Source: Phellopilus nigrolimitatus
Taxonomy: Eukaryota > Basidiomycota > Agaricomycetes > Hymenochaetales > Hymenochaetaceae
Direction of reading: 5' to 3'
DNA length: 64,000 nt
NCBI GenBank assembly: GCA_021029095.1
Contig: JAJOHG010000082.1
Coordinates: 54,484 to 118,483, forward strand
Positions within the stretch are counted from its first letter, which is position 1. Each line of letters begins with the position of its first letter. The position numbers and the translations under genes are program-made. The notes beneath the pieces are model-generated. The model worked only from the letters and a program-made list of their open reading frames with translations. It did no database searches and was not told the DNA's origin. This document shows positions 2,165 through 64,000 of the stretch, piece by piece.

Positions 2165-2199
2165 CCGTACGAGTTACTTGAGAATCCTTACACGGCAAC

Positions 2200-2282: not shown

Positions 2283-3150
2283 AAGGATATAGTTGCCTAT
2301 ACTGAAAACTTGCGTATGGCAAGTCACATGAAGAATCAGTGTAATCCGTCGTCGGTCAAGGTAGATCCTACCTCTGTCTATTTCGCGCCGATAGTCTCAG
2401 GTAAAAAGTTACGCGAGGCTGCAAGTGCGTCCCTGGGCTATGAGCGTCAGAAAAGTGGTCATTGCCCAGGCGATTCCAGATTTCGCTCACCTTCCGCGAT
2501 CTTGTACTTTCCTATGTTGTTCTTATATCGAATTTGAGATAGTTCTCGGGCGGCAAAGACTACTTAACATGAGAGGAGGGAAAGGGTCAAAAGTGTGAAA
2601 GCAGCGCTCCCATGGTATTCGTATCTATATAGTGTTGACTTTGATTCCCGCAAACTTCGGACTGTTCGAAAGGCAAGAAGCTGGATGATGCCGAAAGCTA
2701 ACACGTGGGCAGGTAGCACAGTGTAAGCAAACACGCACCTTGCTTTCCGTGTAGCATCCTGATTGTTACCCGGCGCTCATACTCGTCGCGCGTTCGTTTT
2801 CAGCTCTGCCGCCCTTACCGCTGCGGGCAACGTCTTTCGCCTCGAAAAGAATTGAAAAAAAAGCATTGGAAGTATCAGAGGTGCAAGTAATTATGCTTTG
2901 CCGAAAATACTCACTTCATCACCAAAAACGTGTCCTTGCGGTATTATCGGGGGCGCGGTGCTATAAGTAATTGATATGTCCATTCGAGACTTCCAGGTGT
3001 AAACCACCTGTTAGAAGCCATACGCTTGTTCATGCACTGCAGTCCGCATGTACGTTTTGACCATTTACGGTTCGCCAATATCTTCCTTCCACTCCCTTCA
3101 AAGATAACCAGAATCATCGTATGAAACTCGAATAACAAATGAAGAAAACA
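2283..3150 (-). other. Shared upstream block of the TPR-CHAT genes, copy A
   Basis: No gene was found here. The sequence is homologous to the upstream regions of B (14289-15300), C (25277-26280) and, in inverted orientation, D (about 30820-31271). It includes a conserved TATAGTTGCCTATACTG element next to the 5'-UTR intron, probably core promoter. The distal part (2944-3138) is a flank that recurs beside the cytosine-deaminase relics. Confidence 0.5.
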
Positions 3151-14192: not shown

Positions 14193-14226
14193 CCGTACGA
14201 GTTACTTGGGAATCCTTTCACAGCAC

Positions 14227-18957: not shown

Positions 18958-20057
18958 TTAATCAGAGTCTGAATCATCCTAAGCCCAAGCGCCATCAATA
19001 AAGTATAATGCGATAGTGCTACGAAACTCACCATGTACTCGATGACCTCTTCCTCTCCATCGTCGTCCAGGAATCCCCACGGAGCTTCCACGTTTGCCCA
19101 GCTGATCGTCGCAGTGTTATCCGAATGTGCTCGAGAATCAAGAATCAAATACTTACAAATCACCCGTGGGAGCATTTTCGTCGAAGCTTTCGCGTCGTAT
19201 TTTACGCTTTGTGATTTTCTTGATGGAATACAGAGGGACGAAGACCGCCTCGTCGTTATATCCCTTCTGCAACAGGCCAGCAGTGCCGTCGCCCACCCAT
19301 TTTGTACCGATTCCTGCCCCGGGTGAGACGCTCGGAGCAACATTGCTGGGAACGTCTGCTACTAAAGCGATGCTGACCGTCTCGCTGGCTGTAGTACCAT
19401 TAGCGTCAGATCGAGGGATTCCAGATACAGGATTAAATACTTGCTCTTGTTAGAAAGATACAACGCATACGCGGGGCATGAATACACATGTGTTACAAGT
19501 GTCTTGCCTTTCAACAAGCCACGGCCGAGGGATTCAGCAAGGAACTCGTCCGGGACTCTTGTAATGCGAGGCACGTGCATGATGAGAAGAGCCCCACGCG
19601 ACTCGTTAAATTTCCATTGACCTTTGAGGGACGCTTCTGCAAAATCAGCGACGTTGCTGCAAATCCAATTAATCGCAACAAAGACGGAGTTGGCATTGAG
19701 TACTCACACATTGATGTCAGCTCCAAGCTCGCATTGCTTTGCACTCGATGAATTTATGATATATTTATCGAGAGCCGCTTCGGGTACCAGCTGGAATTGT
19801 GCCGCGAGACCGGCGATAGATTCGTCACTGCTAGTGTAGATATTGCCCTCCTTCACGAACTGGCCAGACTTGATGTCGATTTCACCATAGTCCCCTGCCT
19901 GCAACCCATGTCCATGTAAGTGAATGCCGCGTAACATAGGTCGGGTAGAGCTGACCGTAATCTGAATCGACGGATTCCAATTTGCCCACCAGGACGAGGA
20001 TCGTCTGATCAAATCTATAAACTTGCGAGAGGCCTCTTTCTTGGTCCAAAAGTCCAT
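18958..20057 (-). CDS. Gasdermin-like pore-forming protein 1 (275 aa, 6 exons)
   Basis: Model (high to low): 20057-19956, 19898-19708, 19656-19445, 19388-19157, 19101-19032, 18978-18958; 828 nt with stop. Visible: N-terminal amphipathic stretch KKEASRKFIDLI, then WWANWNPSIQIT, AGDYGEI, GNIYTS, the middle motif RGALLIMHVPRI, CPAYALYLSNK, a short basic cluster before FDENAP, and an acidic tail ending DDSDSD on a 21-nt last exon. Length, the GDYG/GNIY motifs and the basic-then-acidic C-terminus fit fungal gasdermin-like proteins (RCD-1, HET-Q1), whose N-terminal part makes membrane pores after removal of a short C-terminal tail. Intron 3 starts with GC (GCAAGT). Start chosen by alignment with genes 2 and 3. 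The family call is from memory; the gene model is firmer than the name. Confidence 0.68.
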
Positions 20058-20105
20058 GCTGCGTATGTTGAGGGGATACGGAGAGGAAGCTGTTGACGCT
20101 CGGAT

Positions 20106-20117
20106 GAGTATATAAAT
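20106..20117 (-). promoter_or_regulatory. TATA-like element of gasdermin-like gene 1
   Basis: Minus strand reads ATTTATATACTC about 52 nt before the start codon. The identical element at the same distance precedes gene 2, and a close variant precedes gene 3. Confidence 0.5.
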
Positions 20118-20199
20118 GACTGATAAATAGCGTTCGTTTAGGACACTTGCTATTGCTATCAGTCTTATCTGACGCCGAGTCGACAAATGACCATCTACA

Positions 20200-20680
20200 C
20201 AGCTGAACGGTGATGATGAGAGGCGCTCATACACTGAACTTTGTCCATTAAGAAGTCAGTAGGGCACCGCACCGCATCGCATACGGATGCGATTGTACAA
20301 TTCGAACCCCTATACGAGCACGAACCGTATACAACGTGTCGTGCAGCTGCTTGGAAGCCACATACGGTACAGCACGAATTTCATTCAGCCGTAGACGCCG
20401 TTGCGGTACATCGGTACATCAAATTGGCGCACCATGCCGAAGCACACAAGAAGTCCTAAGAGCAGGGCACTGAAAAGGTCTGTGTCACATCGCTTCCTGA
20501 TTCCTGTGTTGTCATCAGGCGTGGATAAAAGACGACGACTTCGTCTATTGATTGCTTCCATGAACCTTCATCGGGGGAGAGCAGCACGGCGATGTCCAAG
20601 GATGGACACACGCGTCGCTCTGAAGTAATCTCGAAAAGAAATGGTTTAAGAGAGCGCGGTAGACCAGGCGCGTATACCAC
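20200..20680. other. Shared upstream block of the gasdermin-like genes, copy 1
   Basis: No intact gene. Homologous to about 29345-29750 and 37340-37690, each lying just upstream of a gasdermin-like gene. Long enough (about 400 nt) to hold promoter sequences. Minus-strand frames are open in places but not conserved in frame. Confidence 0.5.
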
Positions 20681-20789
20681 TTAGGAAAAGGCGTTCAAAA
20701 ACAAGCAGTCTATATGAAATAGCACGATGAATTTGTACTTCATGATAAGGCATTCATAGGATTCATGGAATGCTGTGTCTGGGTGAAAA

Positions 20790-21795
20790 ACCGAGCACGT
20801 GATGGTGCTGCCGTCACGGGATGTATTTGCACTTCGCGTCCGTTACATAATACAGTGTAACTTCAAAAACACACTGATATGCTCCCAACCTGCGTCGTCA
20901 TATTTCCTGTGTGCGTGTGCATTACCGTCTTATTTAGCATCGAGCCTGCTGTTTTACTTCACTCCGTTCGCACTGGGCGGCGCAGAAACCGATACAGCAC
21001 CAAGAGCCTCGCGTTCGCAGAGGTAGATCGCCGAAACATACACCGGCAGCATGAACTCCTTTTCATGCTCGCCATTAACCAGCTCCTCCGGCTCCTGTAA
21101 CTGCGTTTCGCGGACACGACACTTTTGGTGAACATCGAGAGTCCCGCAGAGCACGGCGGCGGCGGGAATGTAAGCGTGTGGAAAACGCGCTTTGCTGAAG
21201 CCCTACTTGCCGTGTCCGTGCGCGTTTCCGGTATAGAGCCGAGTACGCCCGTGCGGCTTGCGAATTCGAGCGTAGCGCGAGGACGTGGGAGGGGAGGGGA
21301 GGGGGGGGGGGGCGGCGGCGTGGGCCGCGTACCTGGACCGGCAAGCATGCTAGTGCCAGAAAGTAATGCGCCGACGGCGTGTGGTAGAGGGAGCGCGAAT
21401 AGGCTGAGAGCATCTTCCTTTTGTTCGCATTAAACATGCGGGCTTTTGTGGTATGCCGCAGGCACTTGCGACGCCGTCGAGAGGGATACGCAAACGCGGT
21501 ACTTACGTGCGTCGACCAAGCAGAGGGAGTACGCGTGCTCGTACCGCTCGACCTCGGTGCACTGCGCGCAGAGGGGCTACGAGAACTGCACGAGAACTAT
21601 GTGGCATACGTTCAACACCCAAAGAAAATCAGAGACAATGTGCTACTTGACGCTCAACGTGTGCCTCGGCGTCGAGCACGGTCTCGGACTCTGCTTTTGC
21701 GTCTTTTCCCCTTCTCTCTATCCGTTGGGGTTCTCATTTGGGCCAATAGGCTACTCTGCAGAGGGTGCTCGACGCGAACCAGTTTTTACTAGATA
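20790..21795 (-). pseudogene. Unidentified relic family U, copy 2
   Basis: Homologous to 7200-8814. The minus strand shows REAQLQEP-type and YVSAIYLCEREA-type peptides near 21110-21010. Compared with copy 1, a different middle part is kept. It contains the empty insertion site corresponding to the transposon at 8815-9969, and a G-rich tract at 21287-21312. Confidence 0.4.
21287..21312 (+). other. G-run tract (G-quadruplex potential)
   Basis: Uninterrupted purine run GGGAGGGGAGGGGAGGG followed by a G homopolymer of about 11, within relic U copy 2. It meets the simple G3+ four-run pattern. The homologous copies lack the long run, so it is a local expansion. Confidence 0.6.
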
Positions 21796-21799
21796 TCCC

Positions 21800-22286
21800 T
21801 TTTATTTAGTAGGTTCTCCTCAAACGGTCGCGACCAGAACGAAGAGCGAGGTGAGTGTCCTAGTTGTTACATTCCTTCTGTATTTTTTACCTTACTATGG
21901 TTCATCTGCACTACTCTTTCATAATTGGAACTTCGTACTCGTATTTCGCTTCGGCACGTTTCAGTCGAGTCGCGCGAAGTCGACGAGATGTATTATTGCA
22001 CTCGAGCGACCGATCATTGCAAACGTCAACGGTGAAATTCAAAGCGCTAGACAGTGAATGATCTTCTAATTGTCAAGTACAAGAGCAATGAATAAAATAG
22101 TAACTGAACGGATCTCCATGTAGTCTGGACTACCAATATGCAGCATACATGTCGAAACCCACACAGAGAACGAGAGCGCTTGTGGAAACAGCGGGGAGAA
22201 AGAAAAAAGCTACATGTGGCTGCATGATAACTCGTCAGAACATCCGTATTCGAAAAACGTCGGAAACTCAACTGTTATCTTTCTCA
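21800..22286 (-). other. 3' flank of TPR-CHAT C
   Basis: No gene. Homologous to 9972-10373 and to the flank of D; marks the edge of the duplicated CHAT unit. Confidence 0.5.
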
Positions 22287-25181
22287 TCATGCTCCGATAT
22301 GGATAAAATTGATCCATCGAGCAACCGTCATGCCCCTCCTCATTTGCAAGCGCTTGATCGCTTCACGAAGAGCCCTCGCAGACCGCTTGAATCCCAACTC
22401 GGGTGAATCCTCCTCCGCAAACATACGTTCGTAAAACTCCTCGGCGACGAAAGGCCCATCGATATCAGTCACCGCCCACATCGTACCGATCACACTTCGG
22501 AAGCCGGAGAACTGCATGGCTGCAGCGAGATGAAATACTTCCTCGCGTGCCCCGCCAACAGTCTGCCCCGCACTGTGATCGGCGGATAAAAATGCGAATT
22601 CAGCATTCGGTAGTTTGAATTGAATGATGTCGAGCAAAGTGAGACGGTCTTCGCCGAAAAGCTGGAACGCATGGAGAAAGGGTTTTCGAGGATTTAGATA
22701 GCCCTGGCAAGCCAAATGTACCCAGTCATGGTCACGAAATTTGTCGATGACTGCTTCGCGCGTAACTTGCTCACGGACAAGACATTTGACAAAATCTCTG
22801 TTTTCCTGTATGGCACGATACTCTTCTTCGACTGAGGGGAGACTTTTATCAGGCAAAACAACAACGAGGAGCCGTGGTCGTCCAATGTCGTGTCTCCTAA
22901 TCCCAGGCTTGGACTCCCGAGCATTGATCAAGGCCGTGAGTGTCGGGGTGTACGACGAGATGTAATCATCTGAGAGATACTGTTTTCTGCCATTCACAAC
23001 GCGAATCGGGCCTGCCGCATGGAAAGGTAGAGTAGATAAGATAGATGTCGGGCACCACCAGATACGTGTCTGTTTCTCAATCCCGAGCTCGTCCAGCTTC
23101 TCGACCACCCGCGAAACCACCCGGTTCCACAGGAAGCTCAACACACCTTCAATGACCTCATCACGTGCTTTTGGCTCCGTCTGAGCCTTCTGAAGTGCAG
23201 TTTTGAGATCTTTCACAAGCGAGGGGCCGTCGTGGTCAAAGTTTGAATCCAGTTCGATGCTGACAGGCGGGCGATCATAAAGAACAATAAGAGCATCGGA
23301 ACGATATTTACAGTGGCTGATGATGATGACGGGTCCCTCAACAGCAGCCCCTTGAAGAACACTAAATTTTTGAAGTCGTAGGAAGTCTTCAAAACCTGAC
23401 AACGTGCGAATCTCTGCGACGATGGCCTTCAATTGGGATGCGAGACGCCGCTTTCGCGAATACATTTCGTCCACGAGTTTCTGCGATGCACCTGTAAGGC
23501 TATTCTCCGAGACCAGAGTAGTTGGCCTCGGCTCGGATGAAGTGGCGAGTGATTCCAGTTCGCGGCCGGTAGTTGAAAACCTGTCTGCCAAACCTTTGTT
23601 GACTTCCCTAAGCTGTTCAATTGGCATTCTGAGACCGCGCAACTGCGACCAGATAAGGGCCTTGCCTCGCTCGAGCATCTCGACAGCCTGGGCCACCTCA
23701 CCGATCTCTATGGCATACGAAGCCGCATCCGAAGCGATTGTTAGATAGCCGTTTCTGCCACCAAGAATCTTATGCTGCATCTGCACGGTGGGAGTTATGA
23801 CGAGCCAGCTCTCGAGGAGTGAGAGAGCGAGCCGGTAAGCTTTCAAGGTAGAAGTATGACTCTGTGATCGCGCTAAAGCTGCCCATCGCGCTGCTACTCT
23901 GAGCCGCGTTAGCGTATTGGAGAAGACATGACCAGCGCCTTCTTCATGATAACGGAGCGACTCCTCGAGATCGTTTACCCGATCGGTTTTCTCAAACCGA
24001 GTCCATATGGCTCCTCCAAGGTTGCTCAGAGATACTGAGCGGTCAGGGTGTCCAGGAGGGCACAGCGCAAGCGCGTTGCGATGGAGGATGATGGACTCCT
24101 CGAGATCCTCCATCCGACCGGTTTGCTCAAATCGAGTCTGCACGGCTACTGCAACGTTGCTCAATGATGCGAAGCGAAGTGGGTGCCCTGAAGGACGTAG
24201 TTCTAGCGCTTCGCGACTGAGGACGATGGACTCCTCGAGATCCTCCATCCGACCGGTTTGCGTGAACCGAGTCCATACGGTATTTGCGAGGTTGTTCAAA
24301 GGGACGGAGCGACCAGGGTGTCCAGGAGGACACAGCTCAAGCACCTCGTGTTGGAGGGAAATGGACTCCTCGAGGTCCAACATCCGACCGGTGTGCTCGA
24401 ACCGAGCGCTCACAGCTGCTGCAAGGTTGTTAAGAAGCCGAGAGCGACGAGCGTGCTCATGAGGACACAGATTTAGCGCGTTGTGGTAGAGGGCAATAGA
24501 CCCCTCGAGATCCTCCATCCGACCTGTGTGTTCGAACCGAGTGCTCATGGCTACCGCAAGGTTGCTAAGAAGTCCGGAGCGACGAGTGTGCTCAAGAGGA
24601 CACAGATTTATTGCGCCGCGGTAGAGGATAATGGACTCCTCGAGATCCCCCATCCGACCGGTGTACTCGAACCGAGTGCTCACGGCTGCTGCAAGGTTGT
24701 TAAGAAGTCCAAAGCGACGAACTTGCTCATGAGGACACAGATTTAGCGCGTCGCGTTGGAGGGAAATAGACTCCTCAAGATCTCCCAGCCTACCTGTCTG
24801 CTTAAAACGAGTGATCAAGGCATTTGCAAGGTTTTTTATTGATCTGGAGCGATCAGGAGGACGCAGATTTAGCGCGTCGCGTTGGAAGACAATTGGCTCC
24901 TCGAGATTCTCCGACCGACCTGTCTGCTTAAAACGAATGCCCACGACGTGCGCACGGTGGCCCAGTGACCAGGAGCGCTCAGGTTGTCCGGGTGAACACA
25001 GGTCCAGTGCGTCACGGAGTTTGGCAATCGACTCCTCGAGATGCTCCATCCGACCGGTCTCCACAAACCGAAAAAACAGAGCCTTTGCACGGAGTTCCAG
25101 AAACTGGTAACGAAGAGGGTCTCCAAGCGGAAGAACATGATCTAGTAGGGATCTGACAGTGAAGAGCGTATTGTCATCCAT
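22287..25181 (-). CDS. TPR-CHAT protein C, predicted catalytically dead (pseudoprotease)
   Basis: Open frame of 964 codons: 40-residue cap (LPLGDPLR), eight 45-residue TPR-like repeats plus a degenerate ninth, helical linker, CHAT domain. Repeat 2 lacks three residues (PPDRS for PPGHPDRS). Repeats 3-5 form a distinct sub-family with CPHE or CPLE in place of PPGH. The frame is intact throughout, but both catalytic residues are replaced: ACHG is ACQG (Q826, codon at 22704-22706) and LSAC is LSAD (D868, codon at 22578-22580). Everything around them is well kept, which suggests a retained non-enzymatic role such as decoy, scaffold or inhibitor rather than decay. Its 3' end faces gasdermin-like gene 1 in the same orientation, 2.2 kb away. 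Confidence 0.85.
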   Translation of the reverse strand: MDDNTLFTVRSLLDHVLPLGDPLRYQFLELRAKALFFRFVETGRMEHLEESIAKLRDALDLCSPGQPERSWSLGHRAHVVGIRFKQTGRSENLEEPIVFQRDALNLRPPDRSRSIKNLANALITRFKQTGRLGDLEESISLQRDALNLCPHEQVRRFGLLNNLAAAVSTRFEYTGRMGDLEESIILYRGAINLCPLEHTRRSGLLSNLAVAMSTRFEHTGRMEDLEGSIALYHNALNLCPHEHARRSRLLNNLAAAVSARFEHTGRMLDLEESISLQHEVLELCPPGHPGRSVPLNNLANTVWTRFTQTGRMEDLEESIVLSREALELRPSGHPLRFASLSNVAVAVQTRFEQTGRMEDLEESIILHRNALALCPPGHPDRSVSLSNLGGAIWTRFEKTDRVNDLEESLRYHEEGAGHVFSNTLTRLRVAARWAALARSQSHTSTLKAYRLALSLLESWLVITPTVQMQHKILGGRNGYLTIASDAASYAIEIGEVAQAVEMLERGKALIWSQLRGLRMPIEQLREVNKGLADRFSTTGRELESLATSSEPRPTTLVSENSLTGASQKLVDEMYSRKRRLASQLKAIVAEIRTLSGFEDFLRLQKFSVLQGAAVEGPVIIISHCKYRSDALIVLYDRPPVSIELDSNFDHDGPSLVKDLKTALQKAQTEPKARDEVIEGVLSFLWNRVVSRVVEKLDELGIEKQTRIWWCPTSILSTLPFHAAGPIRVVNGRKQYLSDDYISSYTPTLTALINARESKPGIRRHDIGRPRLLVVVLPDKSLPSVEEEYRAIQENRDFVKCLVREQVTREAVIDKFRDHDWVHLACQGYLNPRKPFLHAFQLFGEDRLTLLDIIQFKLPNAEFAFLSADHSAGQTVGGAREEVFHLAAAMQFSGFRSVIGTMWAVTDIDGPFVAEEFYERMFAEEDSPELGFKRSARALREAIKRLQMRRGMTVARWINFIHIGA

Positions 25182-25215
25182 CCGTACGAATTACTTGAAA
25201 ATCCTTTCACGGCAA

Positions 25216-25276
25216 CTGCGAGGATGAGCACGAACGTTGATCAATCATGGTACTCGGTTCCTAGAAATACACTCAC
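25216..25276 (-). promoter_or_regulatory. Predicted 5'-UTR intron of TPR-CHAT C
   Basis: GTGAGT donor, CTCGCAG-type acceptor (CTCGCAG then TTGCCGTG), 61 nt, same place as in the other paralogs. Confidence 0.5.
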
Positions 25277-26280
25277 GCCGGGTTTGAAGGATATAGTTGC
25301 CTATACTGAAAATTTGTGCGCTCTGTACAGCAAGACACAAAAAGGATTAGTGCAATCCATCGACGAGTAAGGTAGATCCTACCTCTGACTGTTTAGCTGC
25401 GATAATCTCAGCTTTAATGTTATGCGAGGCTGCAAGTGCGTCCGTAGGCTCTGAGCACCAGAGGAGGTATTTAGCGCAGTTCAATGGTGCTCTCGACGAT
25501 TTAAAATATCGCTCACCTTCTGGGATCTTGTACTTTCCTACGTTGTTTTTATGTCGAATTTTAGATAGTTCCCGAATGGCGCGGATAGATTGACATGAGA
25601 GGGGGGAGGAGTCGAAGGTGAACGCCCATGGCGTCCCCGGATTTATAGTGTGTTGACTTCAACTTCCGCAAACTTCGAACCATTCGAAAGGCGAGGGACC
25701 GAATGTTGCCGAAATCCAAAACCCAGATACATGTCCATATATTAAACAACGAAGCTTCATTGTCCTTACCCTTTTTGCGAAGGTGGACAGCATGGCGTGA
25801 ACAAGGATGTACCTCGCCTTACTTTTATCATCTGCCCATTCTTGTCGCGCATTTGTTGGTTCTTCCCCGATTGTCAATGTCTATCGCCTGGGTAAAAGAA
25901 AAAGTCAGTAGCATTCGGCGATGTTTACAAGTCAATTGCGTTGAGAATGGTGTAAAATGTTCTTGCACCGCCGATAGTCAACGTCCTTGGGACTTCGACC
26001 GGTGCCATCATGAGACCATCATGGAGAAAAAGAACAAGAACCCACCGCCTCATCAAGGACACATCCTCGTTGTGTTCGCCAGAGGCGCGGTGCGTTTGAT
26101 ACGGCAGTTCAAAACTCTCTGGAGTATCACATCTGTTAGACGCCATAGGCTTCTTCATGCACTGCAGTCCTGTACATTTTGACCTTTTACGGCTCGCCGG
26201 TACCTTCATTCCATTCCTATCGAAAGTAACTAGAATCATCGTACCAATCTTATAGAGCAAAATTAAATATGACTTGCTTT
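25277..26280 (-). other. Shared upstream block of the TPR-CHAT genes, copy C
   Basis: No intact gene; about 1 kb that follows 14289-15300 closely, including the promoter-like TATAGTTGCCTATACTG element. Confidence 0.5.
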
Positions 26281-26284
26281 CGAT

Positions 26285-26960
26285 GCTCTCTAATGAGCTT
26301 CACTCTCCTGATCATCGATAACGGCGACCTCGACATCCTGTGAGCTCGAATCTTTATGCGCGCCTAGGAAATCGACGTTCTCCGCGATAAGAATGCTGTG
26401 AGGAAGCGAGGGGATCCGGTTTGCAATGAGAAAGACCAGCGAGGAATATGGACTTGATGATGGTCAGATGGGTCCCGCGTCTAAGCGCTGTTTGACGAAC
26501 AACCCCCAAATGTTCGCGATACCTGGGACACGAGAAATTCCGCGTCTTGATGCATTCTTGAGCTTGAGCGTGCGGAAGAAATTTGCCGGGAGTTGGTACC
26601 GGCGCATATGGTGCAAAGGTTGAAAATGAGTTAGAAACATGGGATAGAGGTATCGTCTCGCCTGAATGGTGTATATGAGTATGAAAGGCTCGTCAACGCG
26701 CCCCGTCGTAAGAAAGGCACATAATGCTTACGATCGTGGAGTTCTGAGACACATTCGCCTTCAACATGCCCGTCTGTTCGAGTGTCGCCGTCTCGCCGTG
26801 CAGGATTGCTGAGTGCTTCTGGATGCGCTGATTGTGCGGGACACCTATTCAGGTCAGCTCGCCGCTGGTACTCTTTTTCGCCCGTTCGACAATTCCGATA
26901 CCGAGCACGTCGTCAAAATATTCCAATCACGATTTTAGGCGCAACGCGGTCGTGGTGGTC
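26285..26960 (-). pseudogene. FCY1: Cytosine deaminase relic (FCY1-like), copy C
   Basis: Minus strand near 26835-26780 reads GVPHNQRIQKHSAILHGETATLEQ in the FCY1 active-site region; here the HGE motif is retained. It is dead for other reasons. A stop codon directly precedes GVPHNQ (TSGELT then TGA). The zinc motif region (about 26620) reads LCTIC instead of PCDMC. The C-terminal ENVDFLG segment is in another frame. Confidence 0.68.
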
Positions 26961-27289
26961 GTGGTCTATGGTACAATCGACCGACGGCCGTTGGTGCTGG
27001 CCCTTATCGTAAAGATAGCCCCGCGTTTGGTATTGAAAAGAAAGTAGAATAGACTCGAGTACTGTAGACCGGAATTCCAAGTCCAACTAATATTGTCAAA
27101 TGTTCGATATAGCACATTCGCAAGAGAAAGCGCGAGTCCGTCCCGGCCTCCTCACTGCGACCATTCCTTCTGTTCTATGGTACGCGCAGTTGAGCATCAC
27201 CTGGCGCTTAGCGAGTTGCGTGCATGTCGGCGCCGCGAGCTTCACGGCCGACTTGAAGGGCATTCACACTACGACTCATAGAGAGAGCT

Positions 27290-27720
27290 GATAAACTCAC
27301 GAAGGCCTCATTGGACGCGCCCGAGCGGCCGAGGAAGAAGCGCAAGCTCGATAGCCCGCTTACGCCAAGGACCCGATGACTCCGCCGTGCATGAGCCCGA
27401 CGGTGCGCATACCTCTGTCCTGACACGTACAAGCGGCGCGCCGCTCATCACACTTGACGCGCGCCTCCCCGCGACGCTGCGCTGGCCCCATCCGTCGCCG
27501 GCGTGCCCGACGCAAGCGCAAACCTAACGCCGGCGTACCTCGTCCTCGAGCTCTTCTTCCCTGCCACGGACGCAGAGCAGAGGCCGGAGAGGATCGCTTT
27601 AGATGATTTATGGGCCGTAGTGTACGAACTCTGGATGACGATGCACGCGTAGGAAGTCATCCTTTGCCTAACGCGGCCGCTCTCGCGGTTACCTCCTTCG
27701 CTCGGGCTCGCACGTCTCGC
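27290..27720 (+). pseudogene. Siderophore N-acyltransferase relic, copy C (N-terminal part)
   Basis: Plus-strand pieces of the same N-acyltransferase. An N-terminal DAPERPRKKRKLDSPL piece (about 27325-27372) is followed by ASANLTPAYLVLELFFPATD (about 27509-27570) and RIALDDLWAVVYELWMTMHA (about 27593-27652), then a TAG where the 6-kb copy continues with QEVI-like sequence. It supplies the N-terminus missing from the other two copies. Confidence 0.65.
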
Positions 27721-27734
27721 GGCTACACATTTGA

Positions 27735-28069
27735 TTACATTAATTCAGCAGACAAATTTTTTTCTACCCTCAACCTGCGCCTGCACACATCGACCGGCGC
27801 CCGCGCTGCGCCAAACGTCGTGGCGCTCAACTCGTTGTCCGTGACCTCTACAAGTTCCACACTCCTGCCTTGTAGACGTAGGCGCTCATCTTTGCGGGCA
27901 GAACATTCAATACTATAGTGAACTTTGTAAATCACTGTCTCCCGCAGATCAATGAATTTGATAGAAACTATCTTGTACATGCGCACATATCGCTAAAATC
28001 ATTGACAAGCCGTACGCATCTAGCTTCAAATTTGGAAGAAAAACAATTGTCAAAAAAACTTTGTTCTCT
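27735..28069 (-). other. 3' flank of gasdermin-like gene 2
   Basis: Homologous to 18600-18957. Contains the same readable peptide core KDERLRLQGRSVELVEV on the minus strand; no gene model built. Confidence 0.4.
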
Positions 28070-29175
28070 TTAATCAGAATCCGAATCGTCCTAAGGTCAA
28101 GCGGCATCAATAAAGTATTATATACGATAGTGCTACGGGACTCACCATGTACTCGATGACCTCTTCCTCTCCATCGTCGTCCAGGAAGCCCCACGGAACT
28201 TCCACGTTTGCCCAGCTGATCGTCGCAGCGTTAACCAGATGTGTCCGCTCACCAAGAATTAAGTACTTACAAATCACCCCTGGGAGCCTTTTCGTCGAAG
28301 CTTTCGCGTCGTATTCCTCGCTTTCGAATTTTTCTGATGGAATACAGAGGGACGAAGACCGCCTCGTCGTTATATCCCTTCTGCAACAAGCCAGCAGTGC
28401 CGTCGTCCACCCATTTTGTACCGATTTCTGCCCCGGGTGAGACGCCCGGAGCAACAATACTGGGAATGTCCGCTCCTAAAGTGATCTTGACCGTCTCATT
28501 GGCTGTAATATCGTCAGTGTCAGATCGGGTGGCTCCAAACACATATATAGTGAAACACTTACTCTTGTTGGAAAGATACAGCGCATATGCGGGGCATGAA
28601 TACACATGTGTCACAAGTGTCTTGCCTTTTAACAGTCCACGAGCAAGGGATTCAGCGAGAAACTCGTCCGGGACTCTTGTAATGCGAGGCATGTGCATGA
28701 TGAGAAACGCTCCACGAGACTGATTAAACTGCCATTGGCCCTTGAGATACGCATTTGTAACACCAGCGACGTTGCTGCAAATCCAATAAATTTCAATAAA
28801 GGTCGAAACGACATTGGATACTCACACGCCGATGTCAGCTCCGAGTTCGCATTGTTTTGCACTCGATGAACTTATTATATATTTGTCGAGAACCGGTTCG
28901 GATACCAGCTGGAATTGTGCCGTGAGATCGACGATAGATTGGTCACTGCTAGTATAGATATTGCCCTCCTTGACAAACTGGCCAGACGTGGTTTCGATTT
29001 CTCCATAGTCCCCTGCCTGCAACCCATGTCCATGTGAGAGAATGCCATAAAACATAGGTCGGATTGAGCTGACCGTAATCTGAATCGACGGATTCCAATT
29101 TGCCCACCAGGACGAGGCCCGTCTAATTAAGTCTATAAACTTGCGAGAGGCCTCTTTTTTGAACCAAAAGTTCAT
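28070..29175 (-). CDS. Gasdermin-like pore-forming protein 2 (275 aa, 6 exons)
   Basis: Exons (high to low): 29175-29074, 29016-28826, 28774-28563, 28502-28271, 28215-28146, 28090-28070. All introns are 51-60 nt and GT-AG. Residues 36-39 GDYG, 50-53 region GNIY, about 118-127 RGAFLIMHMP, about 158-168 CPAYALYLSNK, 220-230 PLYSIRKIRKR, then a basic cluster (225-234) followed by FDEKAP, a tail with GFLDDDGEEE (255-264) and the terminal DDSDSD. It differs from genes 1 and 3 at many positions, yet exon lengths are identical (102, 191, 212, 232, 70, 21), which argues for selection. It is divergent from TPR-CHAT D, whose start is 2.2 kb away. Intron 1 is 57 nt with no stop in frame, so retention would give a 294-residue form. 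Predicted target of a neighbouring CHAT protease; inference. Confidence 0.72.
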
Positions 29176-29223
29176 ACTGCATGTGTTGAGGGGATACGGA
29201 GAGGAACCTGTCGACGCTCGGAT

Positions 29224-29235
29224 GAGTATATAAAT
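29224..29235 (-). promoter_or_regulatory. TATA-like element of gasdermin-like gene 2
   Basis: Minus strand ATTTATATACTC, about 52 nt upstream of the start, identical in sequence and spacing to gene 1. Confidence 0.5.
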
Positions 29236-29344
29236 GACTTGAAGTAGTGTTCATTTTGATCACCTCCTATTGCTATCCGTTCTTATCTGACGCCGAATCG
29301 ACAAATATCCCTCTACATAGCTAAGCGATGATGAGAAGAGGCGC

Positions 29345-30090
29345 TCATATACTGAAGTTTGCTTCCTTAGAAGCTCGGGTAGGACACCGCACCGTATCGC
29401 TTACGAATACGGCCGTATAAATCGAACCCGAGTACGAGCACGAACCATATACAACGTGCTGTACAGGTGTTTGGAAGCCACATACGGTACAGCGCGAATG
29501 TCTTTCGTTCGTAGACGCCGTTACAGTACATACGCACATCACATTGACACACCATGGCAATGCACATGCGGAAAGTCCCAAGAGCAGTGTGCTGAAAAGC
29601 TCCGTATCGCATCGTTTACTGTCTCCTGTGCTCTCATCAAGCGTAAATAAAGGATGAAAACCTCTTCTATCGATACGAATGCCATTGCCTCCAGGAGCCT
29701 CCATCGGGGGAGAGCAGCAGCGCGCGGACGTAGCGTGAGGACGAGGACACCGTCGAGAAGAGACGTGCAAATGCGGTACACGCGTCGGCGGAGGGAGCAT
29801 GCATGCTCGTACCGCTGAACCTCGGTGCACTGCGCGCAGACGGACTGCAGTGAGGCGGCGAGGTCTACGTAAGAACTGCTCGGTATGCATTCAGCGGGTG
29901 AAAAAAATAGGAGAAGATATGCTTTTACCGCGCAGGGCGTGCCTCGCGTCGAGTACGGCTTTTAAAGCATCGTGAGTATCGGAAATAGAAAAACTGTGTT
30001 GCTTAGCCGATCGTCTACGTACGTCCTTGGGACTACGTCTGGCGCAGCACGAAATCACCATGGAGAAAGAAATAATTAATGCGAAAGATA
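29345..30090. other. Shared upstream block of the gasdermin-like genes, copy 2
   Basis: No intact gene. Follows 37340-38210 over most of its length, including a run of relic U sequence (about 29700-29900) and the CCTTGGGACTACG segment that also flanks the FCY1 relics. Confidence 0.5.
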
Positions 30091-30099
30091 AGAAACAAA

Positions 30100-30330
30100 T
30101 ATAACTAAGAGCTCACCTCCGGATGCCCTTTTGAATCAAGTCCTCGTACACCTGATTATCGACAACTATGCTCGACACCCCACGAACGTAGATATTCGTT
30201 CCCAGCCAAGAGATTAACGTTCTTGCCTATGACGACCCGATAATAGCATTAGTGCACATATCGCATGGCCTGAGAGTGGACAGGCTGTCGCATCTTACCT
30301 GATAGTAGTGTACTCGCGTATTAAATTTTG
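30100..30330 (-). pseudogene. FCY1: Cytosine deaminase relic (FCY1-like), copy D, C-terminal piece
   Basis: Identified through its close match to 38465-38700, where the ENVNFLGG and GVE segments of cytosine deaminase can be read. Only the last part of the gene is kept; frames are broken. Confidence 0.5.
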
Positions 30331-30741
30331 TTAGCGCGGCAACCAGTGCACAAGAATCTCATGGTCAAACGGTCGGAAAGGAAGACAGTCTTCCAGTGCG
30401 ACGATTTGGACGGGATGGTCAGCGTCGAGCAGTACTTTCAACGAAGTAAGCACAACGGGCTGTGTGAATACATTACATAAATACGCGTGGCAGTGTTCTG
30501 TATAGAATTCAATATTCGCCTCCAACATGCGGATGACTTGTCTTTCATCAATATGGGAAACAAAGCCAACGATACCTTGGTTCCTGCCGAACTCTGCGAG
30601 ATCGAGCCAGGCTATGCTCTCCGAGTGCGAAACTCTGGAAATGGCAAAGTACACGACAATTCCACCTTTCGTCAGCGCTAAGACGATCGCCGAACAAGGA
30701 ATCGAAGTACTGGGTCTGTGCCAGGGCGGCGCACCGCTCAT
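30331..30741 (-). other. Open frame of 136 codons, unrecognised
   Basis: ATG-started minus-strand frame with no clear family similarity; it contains FVSHIDERQVIRMLEANIEF and ends LVHWLPR. It has no counterpart at the matching place in the other modules. Between relics, with no supporting introns or promoter, it may be a fragment of a larger dead gene. Confidence 0.25.
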
Positions 30742-30819
30742 ACAGTAACAACCAGGATGCTACAAGGAAAGCCAGGTGCGTGGTTGTTTGCACTGTGCTA
30801 TCCGCCTCCGTTTTCGCTT

Positions 30820-31271
30820 TCGGCAACTCTCGGGCCTCGCCTTTCGAATGGTTCAAAGTTTGCGGAAGCTGAAGTCAACACGATATAAATCCGGGGATAC
30901 CTTAAGAGCGCTGCTTTCACGTTCACGTTCACGTTCACCCTCGACCCTTTCCTCCTGTCATGTCAAGTGGTCTCCGCCATTCAGGAAACTTCGACATAAG
31001 AACAACGTAGGAAAGTACAAGATCCCAGGAGGTGAGTGATATCTAGGATCGTCGAGAGCACCATTGAACTGCGCTGAATACTTCCTCTGATGCTTATAGC
31101 CTACGGACATACTTACAGCCTCGCGTAACACTTTACTTGAGACTGTCGTAGCAAAACAGACAGAGGTAGGATCTACCTTGATCGCCGGTGGATTGCACTA
31201 ATCCTTCTTGTGACTTGCTGTACAGAGCGCGCAAATTTTCAGTATAGGCAACTATATCTTTCAAACCCGGC
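30820..31271 (+). other. Shared upstream block of the TPR-CHAT genes, copy D (inverted)
   Basis: No gene. Inverted relative to the other three copies, like its gene. Contains the conserved CAGTATAGGCAACTATATC element just before the 5'-UTR intron. Confidence 0.5.
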
Positions 31272-31333
31272 GTAAGTATATCTCCAGGATACTGAGTACC
31301 ATGATCGATTAACGTTCGTGTTCATCCTCGCAG
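31272..31333 (+). promoter_or_regulatory. Predicted 5'-UTR intron of TPR-CHAT D
   Basis: GTAAGT donor, ATTAAC branch-like site and CTCGCAG acceptor; 62 nt, ending 24 nt before the start codon. Confidence 0.5.
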
Positions 31334-31357
31334 TTGCCGTGAAAGTAATTCGTACGG

Positions 31358-33568
31358 ATGAATATCATTGCCGGCGGTCGTAATATGCTAGATCGTCTTC
31401 CGCCTGGAGACCCTTCTCGTACCAAGCTGGATGACCTTGCAATGGCTCTGTTCATTCGCTTCCGGAAGGCCGGTCGTATGGATGATCTCGAGGTGTCTAT
31501 TTCACTCTATCGCCGCGCGCTAGAACTGCGTCCTCCTGGACACCCTCTTCGTTCCATGTCACTTAGCAACTTTGCAATTGCCCTGAGCACTCGCTTTGCG
31601 CAGACCGGTCGGATGGAGGATCTCGAGGAGTCTATTGCCCTCGATCGCGACGCGCTAAAACTGCATCCTCCTGGACACCCTCTTCGCTCCATATCACTTA
31701 ACAATCTCGCAGTTACCATGCAGACTCGGTTTCAGCAGACCGGCCGGATAGACGATCTCAATGAGTCCATTGTCCTTCATCGCGACGCGCTGGGACTTCG
31801 TCCTCTCGGACACCCTGAACGCTCCATGTCGTTTTACAACCTCGCGAGTGCCGTGCAGACTCGGTTCAAGCAGACCGGTCGGATGGAGGATCTCGAGGTG
31901 TCTCTCCGTTATTATGAAGAAGGCGCTGATCATGTCTTCTCCAATACGCTAACGCGGCTCGGTATAGCAGTGCGTTGGGCAGCTTTAGCGCGATCGCAGA
32001 GTCATACTTCCACCTTAAAAGCTTACCGCCTTGCCCTGTCACTCCTCGAGAGCTCCCTCGTTATAAATCCCACGGTGCAGATGCAGCATAAGATTCTTAG
32101 CGGTAAAAACGGATTTCCAATACTCGCTGCAGATGCGGCTTCGTATGCCATAGAGATCGGTGAAGTGACTCAGGCTGTCGAGATGCTCGAGCAAGGCAGG
32201 GCCCTTATCTGGTCGCAGTTACGCGGTTTCAGAACGCCAATTGAACAGCTTAGGGAAGTCAATAAAGGCTTGGCAGATAGGTTCCTAACCACCAGCCGTG
32301 AACTAGAATCACTTGCCACTTCATCCGAGTCGAAGCCAATTACTTCACAGGATATCGCGACGGGTGCATCGCAGAAACTCGTGGATGAAATGTATTCTCG
32401 TAAGCGGCGTTCTTCATCCGAAATGGAGGACATCCTTTCACGGATTCGCGCGACATCAGGATTTGAAGACTTTCTACGAGCCCGGCGATTTAGCGTTCTT
32501 CAAGAGGCTGCTGTCGAGGGCCCCGTGATTATCATCAACCATAGCGAATATCGTTCTGACGTTCTTATTGTTCTTCACGATCACCCGCCTATCAGCATTG
32601 AACTAGATCCAAAATTCGACGCTGATTGCTTTCTTCTCTTGGAAGATCTTAAAACTGCACTTCAGAAGGTTCAGACGGAGCCGAATGCATGTGATGCGGG
32701 TATCGAAGGTGTGTTGGAGTTCCTGTGGCACCGGGTGGGATCCCGGGTGATCGAGAAGCTGGACGAGCTCGGGATTGAGAAAAATACTCGTATCTGGTGG
32801 TGTCCGACATCTTTTTTATCTGCTCTACCTTTCCATGCGGCAGGCCCGATTCGCGTTGTGAATGGCAGAAAACAGTATCTCTCAGATGATTACATCTCGT
32901 CATACACCCCGACGCTCACAGCCCTGATCAATGCTCGGGAGTCCAAGCCTGGGATTAGGAGACACGACATTGGACGACCACGGCTCCTCGTTGTTGCTCT
33001 GCCTGATGAGAGTATCCCCCTAGTCGAAAAAGAGTATCGTGCCATACTGAAGGATAGAGATTTTGTCAAATGTCTTGTTCGGAAGCAAGCTACTCGCGAG
33101 GCGGTTATCGACAAATTTCGTGACCATGTCTGGGTTCATTTTGCTTGCCATGGTCATCTAAACCGCGAAGAACCCTTCCTCCACGCTTTTCAGCTTTCTG
33201 ACAGAGACCGTCTCACCTTGCTCGACATCATCCAATCCAATCTACCGAACGCTGAATTCGCATTTTTATCCGCCTGTCACAGTGCGGGACAGGTTATTGA
33301 CATGGCATACGGGGAAGTGCTTCATCTTTCTGCAGCCATGCAGTTCTCCGGCTTTCGAAGTGTGATCGGTACGATGTGGGCAATGGCTGACGACGATGGG
33401 CCTTTCCTCGCCAAGGAATTTTACAAGCGTATGTTTACGGAGGAGGATTCACCCGAGTTGGGATTCAAGCGGTCTGCGAGGGCTCTTCGTGAAACGATCC
33501 AGCGCTTGCGAATGAGGAGGGGCATGACGGTTTCTCGATGGATCAATTTTATCCATATCGGAGCATGA
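31358..33568 (+). CDS. TPR-CHAT protein D (caspase-like protease, 3-repeat arm)
   Basis: Open frame of 736 codons: cap with RLPPGDPSR, three 45-residue TPR-like repeats and a degenerate fourth (about residues 37-190), linker, CHAT domain with intact dyad H598 (ACHG) and C640 (LSAC). It is the only plus-strand copy. Its start faces gasdermin-like gene 2 (divergent, 2.2 kb), and its stop faces gene 3 (convergent, 2.6 kb), the tightest protease-gasdermin arrangement in the window. Beyond the repeat region, identity with A, B and C is very high, so sequence exchange between copies is likely. Confidence 0.87.
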   Translation: MNIIAGGRNMLDRLPPGDPSRTKLDDLAMALFIRFRKAGRMDDLEVSISLYRRALELRPPGHPLRSMSLSNFAIALSTRFAQTGRMEDLEESIALDRDALKLHPPGHPLRSISLNNLAVTMQTRFQQTGRIDDLNESIVLHRDALGLRPLGHPERSMSFYNLASAVQTRFKQTGRMEDLEVSLRYYEEGADHVFSNTLTRLGIAVRWAALARSQSHTSTLKAYRLALSLLESSLVINPTVQMQHKILSGKNGFPILAADAASYAIEIGEVTQAVEMLEQGRALIWSQLRGFRTPIEQLREVNKGLADRFLTTSRELESLATSSESKPITSQDIATGASQKLVDEMYSRKRRSSSEMEDILSRIRATSGFEDFLRARRFSVLQEAAVEGPVIIINHSEYRSDVLIVLHDHPPISIELDPKFDADCFLLLEDLKTALQKVQTEPNACDAGIEGVLEFLWHRVGSRVIEKLDELGIEKNTRIWWCPTSFLSALPFHAAGPIRVVNGRKQYLSDDYISSYTPTLTALINARESKPGIRRHDIGRPRLLVVALPDESIPLVEKEYRAILKDRDFVKCLVRKQATREAVIDKFRDHVWVHFACHGHLNREEPFLHAFQLSDRDRLTLLDIIQSNLPNAEFAFLSACHSAGQVIDMAYGEVLHLSAAMQFSGFRSVIGTMWAMADDDGPFLAKEFYKRMFTEEDSPELGFKRSARALRETIQRLRMRRGMTVSRWINFIHIGA

Positions 33569-34030
33569 TGTGAAAGATAACAGTTGAGTTTCCGACGTTT
33601 TTCGAATACGGATGTTCTGACAAGTTTTCCATACAGCTGCATGTGGTTGTCTCCTTTTATTTTGCTGTGCTTGCAAGTACTCTAGTTCTCTGTACAGTTT
33701 TCAACATGTATATTCTACTCATCTGCAGTTCAGACTGCACCGAGATTCGATCGGTTACTATAATATTCATTGCTCTTGTAATTGATTTTTTTTCATAATT
33801 ATGTACCTAGTGCCACTGTTGACATTTTGAAAGGTCGCTCGAGTACATAAATATCTTATCGTCGGCTTTGCGTACGACTTGACGAAGCGAAACGCGAGCC
33901 AGAAGATTCAATTATAAAGTAGTACTGCAGATGAACGATACTAAGTAAAAATACAGAAGCAATGTAATAGCCAGAACACTCACATCTTTCTCTATCCTGG
34001 TCGTGACCGTCTGAGGTGATCATTTAAACC
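33569..34030 (+). other. 3' flank of TPR-CHAT D
   Basis: No gene; inverted match to 9972-10373 and 21800-22286. Confidence 0.5.
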
Positions 34031-35600
34031 AAAGAAGTATTTGAGCGAAAGGTGGTTTGTGCCGAGCGCCTGCTATCCTCTGTGCAAGGCTTGCCTACTG
34101 GCACGTCTCTTGACCGCGAAGACGAGAAAACAAACGAAGGAGAAAGGGAGAAAGACAGTGAATCAGAGTCCAAGTATACAAGGTTTTCTCTCGTTTTTCT
34201 TCGCCGACCCCTTGCGTAATGCACCGAAGTCGAGCGGCACGATCACGTATCCGCCGACGCGCATTTGCGCATTTCTCTCGACGGCGACGCATGCGCCTGC
34301 GGCATATCCTAATTACCTGGTTGTCGTCTCTCCCAACAGCCCGCATTTCCAACGCAAACAAAGGGAAGATGCTCTCAGGCTCCATCCTCTGGAACTAGAA
34401 TGCGCACCCTGCACCGCCGCCACCGTCCACGTCCTTGCGCTACCGAGCCGCAGGTGCCTTCTCGATGTTCTAGCCCAGCTCCGGACACGCGCACGGGCAT
34501 GGCTCTGGGCACCTTAGGCAGGGCAGCTTTTAAGGCATGTTTTTCTACGCGGTCCCGGTCCCGCTGCCGCCCTCCGTCGCGAGGTTCTCGATGTCTGCCA
34601 CGAGGATCGTTCCCGCGAAGCACAGCCACAAGAGCCGGAGGAGACACTCAACGACGAGTACGAATGGGAGTTTGAGGAGAAGAGATGCAGAGTCGGCGGG
34701 TGGGAGATGGAGGTTGACTCGTTAAGTTCGCTTTTCTTTTATTTGTGAAGTCTTCAATACTTATACTGACTAGCGCTTTGTACTCCCAGCCGCCGTTCTC
34801 CCCGCCTGAACATGTACATGCACATGCTGCCAACCCATATCCACGAATCCCACCTTCTTTCCGCGCACTCTTCCGCGCTTTCCGCCGCTTCGGTCCCTCG
34901 CGTCATTTAGGACGTACGTCCCGCACCCAGCTTCCTGGACCATGATACTGCGCCGCACCCGCACCCTGGCAGTCGGTCAGCGTATGTTCCGGCGATAGAC
35001 CTCTGCGAGCGTAAAACCTTTGGTACAAGCGGGCTCGTATCTGTTTCTGCACCACCCGGTGCGGATGGAGTGAAGTACGGCAGCAGGTTCGATGCGAAAT
35101 AAGAGGATAACACACGCACACGCATGATATATGACGACGCAGGTCGGAATTATATCAGCGTAGACGCACGGGAGCTTGTAAGAGACACGAAGGAATGCGA
35201 GCGCCGTGGGTGTCCCGACGCGTTAACACCACCGAGAACAAAACATATACTGACGCAACATGCATTACAGACAGCCCGCGACCGCGCCCCAAACTGCAGC
35301 GCTCCCTGGCGGCGGCTTCCCGCGAGGTTGATGGCTGAGTACGTAACTACAATTCATGCTTGGTGCAAGTATTTTCGCACGATACAACCCTCACGTCTAA
35401 TCTACATTCGTCTCTTTTTTTTCCACTTACCGTAGTACTTTCCCTTTGTCTTTCCTCCCGCTGAATCTATGACATTTGCCAATGTTTACATGTGTTATTT
35501 CTTGAAGCTGTAGCTGCAAACCGAACGCAAGCTACTCATACGACAAGGGCCAGTACGGCGGGTGTCGGTCGACATTACCATACATAAACCACAACAGTGC
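34030..35600 (+). pseudogene. Unidentified relic family U, copy 3 (inverted)
   Basis: Inverted relative to copies 1 and 2. The peptide with core LNDEYE.EFEEK and RVGGWEMEVD is readable on the plus strand at about 34650-34720, again flanked by stops and frame changes. The block ends with the segment that resembles 7200-7450 and 39000-39130. Confidence 0.4.
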
Positions 35601-36140
35601 TCCGCCTTGAACCGTGAGACGTCGATGTCAGAACATACGTCGGCCCACAATACGGGCGGCGCAGCATGCGCGGTTCGTACAGGTCATACGCTAAGCGTAG
35701 TTGTGAGCGCGGAAAAAATGTGGGAACCGTAGATATAGTGTATGGCTAGCAGGGAGCGCGACCGCTGTGATTACATAACCCCGAAAGGAGAGATTATACA
35801 CTCGTAGCGGGAGTCATCAGCGAAAGCACAGAAGACGGAGAGAATGAGTCCTGTGCTGTACATATACTGCCCATATAGCAACTAAAGGGCTTTTGTACAT
35901 ATTAGCAAACCCGTTCCTACGCTTACGAGTATTGATAACACCCTTCTGCATGTCAAAAGTTCCTCTTCGGATAGTGGGCCTCTCATCAGGCGTCATGGGG
36001 TACTCTGCAAGTGAAGTGATTGGAAGATATATCTTCTAGTTCATGTACACAAGGTTAAATTCGCTTAAAAGCAGTTTTCGGCATACGCATCCAGCTTCGA
36101 GTTTGGAAAGAAACCAATCGTCAGACAAGCTTTATCGCTT
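35600..36140. other. No recognisable gene
   Basis: Spacer between relic U and the 3' end of gasdermin-like gene 3. Unlike genes 1 and 2, the distal 3' flank here is not the shared KDERxRLQGRS block. Confidence 0.35.
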
Positions 36141-37239
36141 TTAATCAGAGTCCGAATCATCCTAAGTTCAAGCGCCATCAATAAATTATAATTCAATAGT
36201 GCTACGAGACTCACCATGTACTCGATAACCTCTTCCTCTCCATCGTCATCCAGGAAGCCCCACGGAGCTTCCACGTTTGCCCAGCTGATCGTCGCAGTGT
36301 TATCCAGATGTGCTCGCGAACCAAGAATAAATACTTACAAATCACCCCTGGGAGCATTTTCGTCAAAACTTTCGCGTCGTATTTTACGCTTTGTGATTTT
36401 CCTAATGGAATACAGAGGGACGAAAACCGCCTCGTCGTTATATCCCTTCTGCAATAGGCCAGCAATGCCGTCGTCCACCCATTTTACACCTTTTCCTGCC
36501 CCTGGTGAGACCCCCGGAGCAACAATGCTAGGAACGTCCGCTGCTAAAGCCAGACTGACCGTTTCGTTGGCTGTAGTATCATCAGTGTCAGATCGGTGGA
36601 TCCCAAACTCAGGATTAAATACTTGCTCTTGTTGGAAAGATACAGCGCATATGCGGGGCATTTATACACACGTGTTACGAGTGTCTTGTCTCTCAACAAC
36701 CCGTCGGCAAGGGATTTATCGAGAAACTCGTCCGGAACTCTTGTGATGCTAGGCATGTGCATGATGAGTAGAGCTCCACGAGAATGATTGAATTTCCATT
36801 GGCCCTTGAGACACGCGTTTGCGAAACCAGTGACATTGCTGCAAATCCAATTAACTGCAAGTATCATGGAGCTGGCATTGAATACTCACAAATTGACGTC
36901 AGCTTCAAGATCGTGTTGTTTTGCCGTCGATGAATTTATGATATATTTGTCGAGAGCAACTTCGGATACCACCTGGAATTGCGCCGCGAGATCGGCGATA
37001 GATTTGTCGCTGCTGGTATAGATATTGCCTTCTTTGACAAACTGGCCAGACGTGGTGTCGATTTCACCATAGTCCCCTGCCTGCAACCCACGTCCATGTG
37101 AGAGAATGCCATAAAACCTAGATCGGGTGAAGCTGACCGTGATCTGAATCGACGGATCCCAGTTTGCCCACCAGGACGAGGATCGTCTGATCAAATCTAT
37201 AAACTTGCGCGAGGCCTCTTTCTTGGACCAGAAGAGCAT
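36141..37239 (-). CDS. Gasdermin-like pore-forming protein 3 (275 aa, 6 exons)
   Basis: Exons (high to low): 37239-37138, 37080-36890, 36838-36627, 36570-36339, 36284-36215, 36161-36141. Exon lengths equal those of genes 1 and 2. Key motifs: KKEASRKFIDLI, WANWDPSIQIT, AGDYGEIDT, GNIYTSSDKS, RGALLIMHMPSI, CPAYALYLSNK, the basic run RKITKRKIRR, GFLDDDGEEE and terminal DDSDSD. Intron 3 begins GC (GCAAGT), as in gene 1. An in-frame ATG 24 nt further upstream (37263) exists, but paralogy favours 37239. It is convergent with TPR-CHAT D. Family call as for genes 1 and 2. Confidence 0.7.
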
Positions 37240-63221: not shown

Positions 63222-64000
63222 CGTGATAGCGTTAGCTAGTACAGTGCTTTGAAGCAGAGACCAAGCATGAAAAACCAAGCGAGAAGGAAACGGAGACGAA
63301 AGCACAGCCGGATAGCTTAAGATTGTGAGGTGGTAGTGGTTGAAGTGCAAAAGAGCTATGCTAAAATCCAAGACGTCATGCCCGAGACTTTCCAATTATG
63401 TAACTCCTCATTCTCCGACCAATGACAGCAACGACGACGAATGACGACGACGATGATGCTGTCGCCTCACAGTGTGTTCAGATAACCTCAACATTTCAAT
63501 ATAACGATGGCAAGACCATAGCAGGATCATGATGTTGGAGGGTGAGAAGGCTGCAAGAGTGGGCACGAAGCGGGCGCTCGTCGAGTAATCAGTGGCACGT
63601 GACATGAAAGTTCTGCGTCTTATCCGATTCGCGGAGGCGGGCGCGCTTCGATGTGTCGTTTCTCTTTTATTTCTCTTTCTTTTCCATGTCCTGTATATAG
63701 TATGTAGAATTTAATCCAAAATTTCCGGATACAATTGGCATTGACATTATGTGTCCCGCTTTCAATCTAATAACCCTCCGCCCGTCCGTTTTCGACAGTC
63801 GGCGGGGACCAAGTAGCCACCGGAAATGTCCGACGTGTGTTCTACATAATTAAAACATATTCATTTTGTGTTTGTTCGTGAACTTGGGTTGCCGATAGAG
63901 CCGTCGATTTAACGCCCGCATCGCCACGGAGTGAGACATCGAACTCACGTAAACCTGGACTCCTTCCGTGGCACCCGAAAGCATGAAAGATACCTTCACG
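63222..64000. other. No recognisable gene
   Basis: Upstream region of ArAE_2 gene 3 up to about 63400, which resembles the region upstream of gene 2 (57923-58080). The rest is spacer with nothing recognisable. Confidence 0.4.

Follow-up and report, generated by a model that had tools for sequence, protein, structure and literature searches.

Gasdermin-based allorecognition has been described from two ascomycetes, and the stimuli that trigger it are presented as an open question (PMC12881547). In Podospora anserina, a gasdermin gene adjoins one that encodes a CHAT protease with TPRs (PMC12881547, PMC10197012), in Aspergillus fumigatus the hetB gene has a CHAT idiomorph (PMC11138114), and NLRs with CHAT domains occur beside gasdermin genes (PMC9815663, the accessible text of which holds nothing on the array described here). 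Pairs of a gasdermin and a CHAT gene are established in fungi, and fungal 'defence islands' are raised in the accessible text of PMC10197012 only as a hypothesis. Here we describe an island of gasdermin and TPR-CHAT genes in the basidiomycete Phellopilus nigrolimitatus. The window, i.e., the whole stretch of 64,000 nucleotides that was analyzed, covers positions 54484-118483 of contig C617 (118,483 bases) of its assembly. A gasdermin/TPR-CHAT cell-death island is the best explanation overall, and we regard it as probable. Our additions to the known pairs are the island itself, a second contig version that diverged as a mosaic, hypervariable TPR positions, and a CHAT gene (CHAT3) without catalytic residues. 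Within the open-licence literature (subscription literature was outside the scope), titles and abstract openings among the matches listed named neither a basidiomycete gasdermin-CHAT array nor an inactive fungal CHAT.

As far as the accessible texts of these sources go, the Phellopilus locus is like the P. anserina cluster in having a gasdermin beside a TPR-CHAT gene. It differs in belonging to a basidiomycete, in forming an array of many units, in that some of its CHATs lack catalytic residues, and in being known here from genes alone. The likeness to the ascomycete allorecognition systems HET-Q1/HET-Q2 and RCD-1 lies in the predicted fold of one gene, gasdermin B; however, HET-Q2 is a serine protease whereas the neighbours here are CHATs, and RCD-1 requires two antagonistic variants (PMC10197012). 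With hetB the locus shares a CHAT-domain gene with strongly different copies, but the other hetB allele is a 149-residue protein without known domain, and no gasdermin appears in the accessible account of hetB (PMC11138114). Bacterial gasdermins resemble the Phellopilus proteins in fold, and Craspase in its TPR-CHAT architecture, whereas the Phellopilus genes are eukaryotic, carry introns and have no CRISPR partner.

Predicted gasdermin fold and gene structure

Three genes of the window (A, B, and C) encode proteins of 275 amino acids, and the gasdermin N-terminal pore-forming fold was predicted in two AlphaFold models of gene B that were built from different alignments. Solved gasdermins were the best matches of both models, with the RCD-1 pore at Foldseek rank 1 for the first and rank 7 for the second, and the best Z scores were reached with the bacterial gasdermins 8sl0/9a84. 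Since gasdermins filled the top 21 and 18 VIA rows and the top 9 and 10 Foldseek rows of these separately aligned models, it is very improbable that the proteins are instead another MACPF/cytolysin-like or an unrelated beta protein. By predicted fold they are thus gasdermins, from a basidiomycete lineage in which they are annotated as hypothetical, and the fungal-gasdermin features proposed in an earlier note on this DNA were supported by the structure prediction. Among 97 homologues queried with PADLOC, one matched PDC-M11B (E 3e-4).

Alignment A2 comprised 24 of the 26 homologues, P0003 and P0025 being left out, and alignment A3 97 of 126, the other 29 having been excluded by hand. Across the 97 homologues, residues 245-266 form a conserved C-terminal peptide (W247, P253, W254, L257, G261, E263; W247...PWxxLDxDGxE), preceded at residues 230-244 by the least conserved stretch except for the final nine residues. 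This conservation pattern suggests a putative hinge at 230-244 and an inhibitory latch at 245-266. Arg233 is kept in 83% of the 96 homologues that have a residue there; caspase-clan enzymes often favour a basic residue.

Alignment and inspection of the reading frames upheld the claim that A, B, and C are intact paralogues of 275 codons with identical exon lengths (six exons of 102, 191, 212, 232, 70, and 21 nucleotides). All three lie on the minus strand and are mutually 83-86% identical. Gasdermin A (18958-20057) was spliced by alignment to B and has no internal stops (exons 20057-19956, 19898-19708, 19656-19445, 19388-19157, 19101-19032, and 18978-18958). The exons of gasdermin B (28070-29175) lie at 29175-29074, 29016-28826, 28774-28563, 28502-28271, 28215-28146, and 28090-28070, and those of gasdermin C (36141-37239) at 37239-37138, 37080-36890, 36838-36627, 36570-36339, 36284-36215, and 36161-36141. 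The public models have 274 (DFH11DRAFT_1277139, gasdermin A), 275, and 270 amino acids, and differ from ours only in the final exon of A and that of C. Intron 3 is GC-AG in A and C and GT-AG in B; across the genome it is GC-AG in seven of ten gasdermin copies, the GT-AG copies being gasdermin B, its counterpart on contig C212, and a copy on contig C45. A five-exon model of 294 amino acids was rejected, as it retained a 57-nucleotide intron and both homologues and a second alignment gave 275 amino acids. The first Pfam, PDB, genome, and homologue searches were queried with that model, i.e., with 19 extra residues.

Gasdermin genes adjoin TPR-CHAT genes

Genome-wide, we found at least 28 CHAT domains, ten close gasdermin genes, and one distant relative. 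Nine of the ten close genes lie within 5 kb of a CHAT domain and the tenth at 5.5 kb, so that all ten have a protease gene within 10 kb, the distance worded in PMC10197012. Since only about 0.5% of the assembly falls within 5 kb of a CHAT domain, this adjacency is above chance, although the ten copies represent about three independent loci (our grouping) descended from one duplicated unit. In Sanghuangporus vaninii, a gasdermin homologue (ACEPAH_9479) and the best-scoring CHAT from outside Phellopilus (ACEPAH_9480) carry consecutive locus tags. The distant gasdermin-like gene (L039, C312:196000-201999, at 2534-3055) is 48% identical over residues 119-264. The genome-wide search found no CHAT domain on its contig, and visual inspection of the open reading frames in the surrounding 6 kb, which were not subjected to a family search, revealed no protease.

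The island on C617 holds five gasdermins and ten CHATs. One of these gasdermins, likewise intact, lies just beyond the window edge near CHAT1 (C617 53107-54162). All four CHAT genes of the window carry a CHAT domain and a TPR array according to Pfam. CHAT1 (68-2173, minus strand; 701-codon open frame) and CHAT2 (10374-14201, minus; 1275 codons, with a long TPR array) keep the catalytic residues. So does CHAT4 (31349-33568, plus; 739 codons; PF12770 E 1.5e-33), whereas in CHAT3 (22287-25190, minus; 967 codons; PF12770 E 1.1e-30, with TPR_10) His is replaced by Gln and Cys by Asp. The earlier note had set three gasdermins among four TPR-CHAT genes with CHAT dyads at 18958-37239. The genes, their coordinates, exon lengths, and orientations hold, including that of CHAT4 (its CHAT D), which forms a divergent pair with gasdermin B and a convergent one with gasdermin C. 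The four long open frames are indeed in the window, but only two lie inside that interval, and the dyad is present in CHAT1, CHAT2, and CHAT4 and wrong for CHAT3.

Several observations count against a cell-death island made of working protease-executioner pairs. Sequence searches with the 275-residue family (Pfam, PDB sequences) named no gasdermin, and the family profile does not recover the PDB chains of RCD-1 by sequence. The CHAT nearest to gasdermin A is CHAT3, with ACQG instead of ACHG and SADHS instead of SACHS (codons CAG and GAT). Finally, the gasdermin beside another CHAT without the catalytic Cys, on contig C45, appears broken in our alignment, with no start at the aligned place and a first stop at residue 91. 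Of the earlier proposal of a locus with several such pairs, then, the gasdermin fold and the pairing by proximity (genome-wide and in Sanghuangporus) stand, but not every pair has a catalytic CHAT.

Variable putative sensors, two contig versions, and the possible cue

The TPR unit is 45 amino acids long, and 102 units (95 of them unique) were collected from 27 of the 28 CHAT genes by a scored scan, which replaced a strict anchor that had missed units; one gene gave none. At most four units were found per gene because the scanned loci reach only about 1.5 kb beyond the CHAT domain. Non-synonymous change exceeds the mean synonymous level at positions 12, 21, 27, 30, 37, and 40, and most other positions vary little. 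Fungal NLRs are described as having shuffled, conserved repeats with exposed-surface residues under diversifying selection (PMC10197012).

Two 4-kb probes show that the right part of the window is collinear with contig C212 (404 kb), at 98-99% identity. C212 holds two gasdermins and five CHATs as against five and ten on C617. Besides copies of B and C, no counterpart of gasdermin A was found when C212:30000-39999 and 45000-74999 were compared with the window by BLAST (matches of at least 250 bases), the remainder of C212 being covered by the genome-wide search only. Inside the island, identity in 500-base steps is mosaic. It amounts to 98.8-100% in gasdermin C (one residue different), 97-100% in the 5' half and 93% in the 3' half of gasdermin B, and 77-92% in CHAT4 and its borders, where 945 gap columns fall within a single array stretch. 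Outside those genes, identity also drops, to 83-89% at 26-27 kb and to 90-92% at 38-39.5 kb. Between the two CHAT4 copies, the CHAT domains show a non-synonymous divergence (dN) of 0.066 and a synonymous divergence (dS) of 0.239, and the tree does not group them (weak support, 62 and 44). Eight residues distinguish the gasdermin B copies (142, 176, 181, 219, 228, 231, 240, and 252). All are in the C-terminal half, and 228, 231, and 240 are in or next to the putative hinge. The C212 copy is identical to gasdermin C from residue 220 onward, an indication of gene conversion. The collinear probes and a single V-ATPase C locus favour C212 as the alternate haplotype over the less probable second locus formed by segmental duplication. 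Nearly identical CHAT domains also occur at non-matching places (C617:3334 and C212:55250; C617:36169 and C631:9800), which suggests recent ectopic copying of units.

At its right border the island meets a partial gene for a membrane transport protein (PF03547; 39953-41038, minus strand). A repeated family of ArAE_2_N, a putative endoplasmic reticulum transporter, fills the right part of the window (43509-44627, plus; 55793-56806, 61083-62105, and 62691-63395, all minus); related stretches are 76-84% alike and also occur on C212 and C170.

The most likely working of the island is sensing by the TPRs, a hinge cut by the CHAT, and a pore made by the freed core. Each TPR array would sense a non-self or damage cue, the binding of which would release the attached CHAT protease. 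The protease would then cut a gasdermin in its poorly conserved hinge (around residues 230-244, Arg233 within), removing the conserved latch (245-266). The released domain (residues 1-230) would oligomerise into a membrane pore and the hyphal compartment would die. Copies of the unit would be reshuffled by duplication and gene conversion. We infer cleavage and pores from the genes, and an allorecognition role is plausible in view of the diverged second copy and the hypervariable TPR positions.

What the cue might be divides the alternatives. A general innate-immune island, in which the TPR-CHATs watch for viruses, other microbes, or damage and an arms race, rather than recognition of other individuals, accounts for the contig differences, has a little less than an even chance in our judgment. 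It would retain the explanation above with another cue, and it fits the large sensor repertoire of 28 CHATs, the hypervariable TPR positions, and the copy-number difference between contigs. If C617 and C212 represent two nuclei of one dikaryon, their versions coexist in a common cytoplasm and tolerate each other there, and a simple allelic killer pair would then be less likely. On the other hand, a CHAT gene with idiomorphic alleles is the mapped heterokaryon-incompatibility gene hetB of A. fumigatus (PMC11138114). That precedent favours a dedicated somatic-incompatibility locus, in which CHAT4 alleles and gasdermin tails would be under balancing selection and would kill on fusion of unlike mycelia. 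Such a locus would agree with the CHAT4 divergence beside a right flank that is 98-99% identical, and with the C-terminal placement of all gasdermin B differences. However, only one strain is represented, non-coding stretches have diverged too, and gene conversion between paralogues yields the same pattern (the tree does not make sisters of the CHAT4 copies, though with weak support, and the C212 gasdermin B carries the end of gasdermin C), and we consider this version rather unlikely.

CHAT domains without catalytic residues

Both catalytic residues are kept in 25 of the 28 Phellopilus CHAT domains, and the catalytic Cys is missing in three. CHAT3, which lacks both residues, was classed among CHAT pseudoproteases rather than proteases; in the C45 CHAT, Asp replaces Cys, and a CHAT on contig C334 has Tyr and Gly at the catalytic positions. 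By comparison, 99 of 100 CHATs from outside Phellopilus keep both residues, one lacks His, and none lacks Cys. These 100 are all the non-Phellopilus proteins, many of them from metagenomes, among the best 120 of 4,954 matches, a sample that dead CHATs of lower rank would escape. The C45 and C334 CHATs are sisters (bootstrap 99) with a common changed neighbourhood (STxHSA), and the loss of residues therefore probably predates their split. Between them, dN is 0.053 and dS 0.175, a ratio of 0.30 (equal rates rejected by Fisher test, p 4e-6), and their dead domain seems to have remained under purifying selection.

The dead CHATs might instead be pseudogenes in decay. The apparently broken gasdermin next to the C45 CHAT is what a decaying pair would be expected to show, and median dN/dS against live CHATs (0.32 for CHAT3 and 0.36 for C334, as against 0.29 among live CHATs) makes some relaxation possible. 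Yet all three genes have long open frames (967, 1049, and 1019 codons), none of them with a stop within the match, and the C45-C334 ratio also speaks against decay, an explanation we regard as doubtful. The case for retention is weaker for CHAT3 than for the C45 and C334 pair. The position of CHAT3 in the tree is weakly supported (62), and its dN/dS with CHAT4 is 0.43. Chance would leave CHAT3 free of stops with a probability of 3e-4 if a branch of 0.087 substitutions per site was neutral but of 0.15 if only 0.02 followed the loss, and the lack of stops is surprising only if the loss preceded most of the branch.

Within the cell-death island, these few CHATs may serve as non-cutting sensors, decoys, or brakes. 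In a more elaborate form, which we find fairly improbable, selection would have kept the dead TPR-CHATs as a functioning component of a haplotype-variable 'defence island', one that possibly underlies basidiomycete somatic incompatibility. As hypervariable sensors, they would hold, titrate, or block live CHATs and so set the threshold of the gasdermin trigger, a fungal counterpart of pseudocaspase brakes. The pseudocaspases cFLIP and caspase-12 are caspase-like without catalytic activity, and the dead CHATs resemble them, by analogy only, as inactive caspase-like proteins.

The island deserves testing as a variant on account of its scale, the mosaic between its two versions, and the dead CHATs that it retains; these CHATs suggest an additional layer of control. 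The Phellopilus locus is a concrete basidiomycete candidate for a 'defence island', and since it combines many units, two strongly different versions, mapped hypervariable sensor positions, and a predicted cut site, sensing, cleavage, and incompatibility are directly testable in it.

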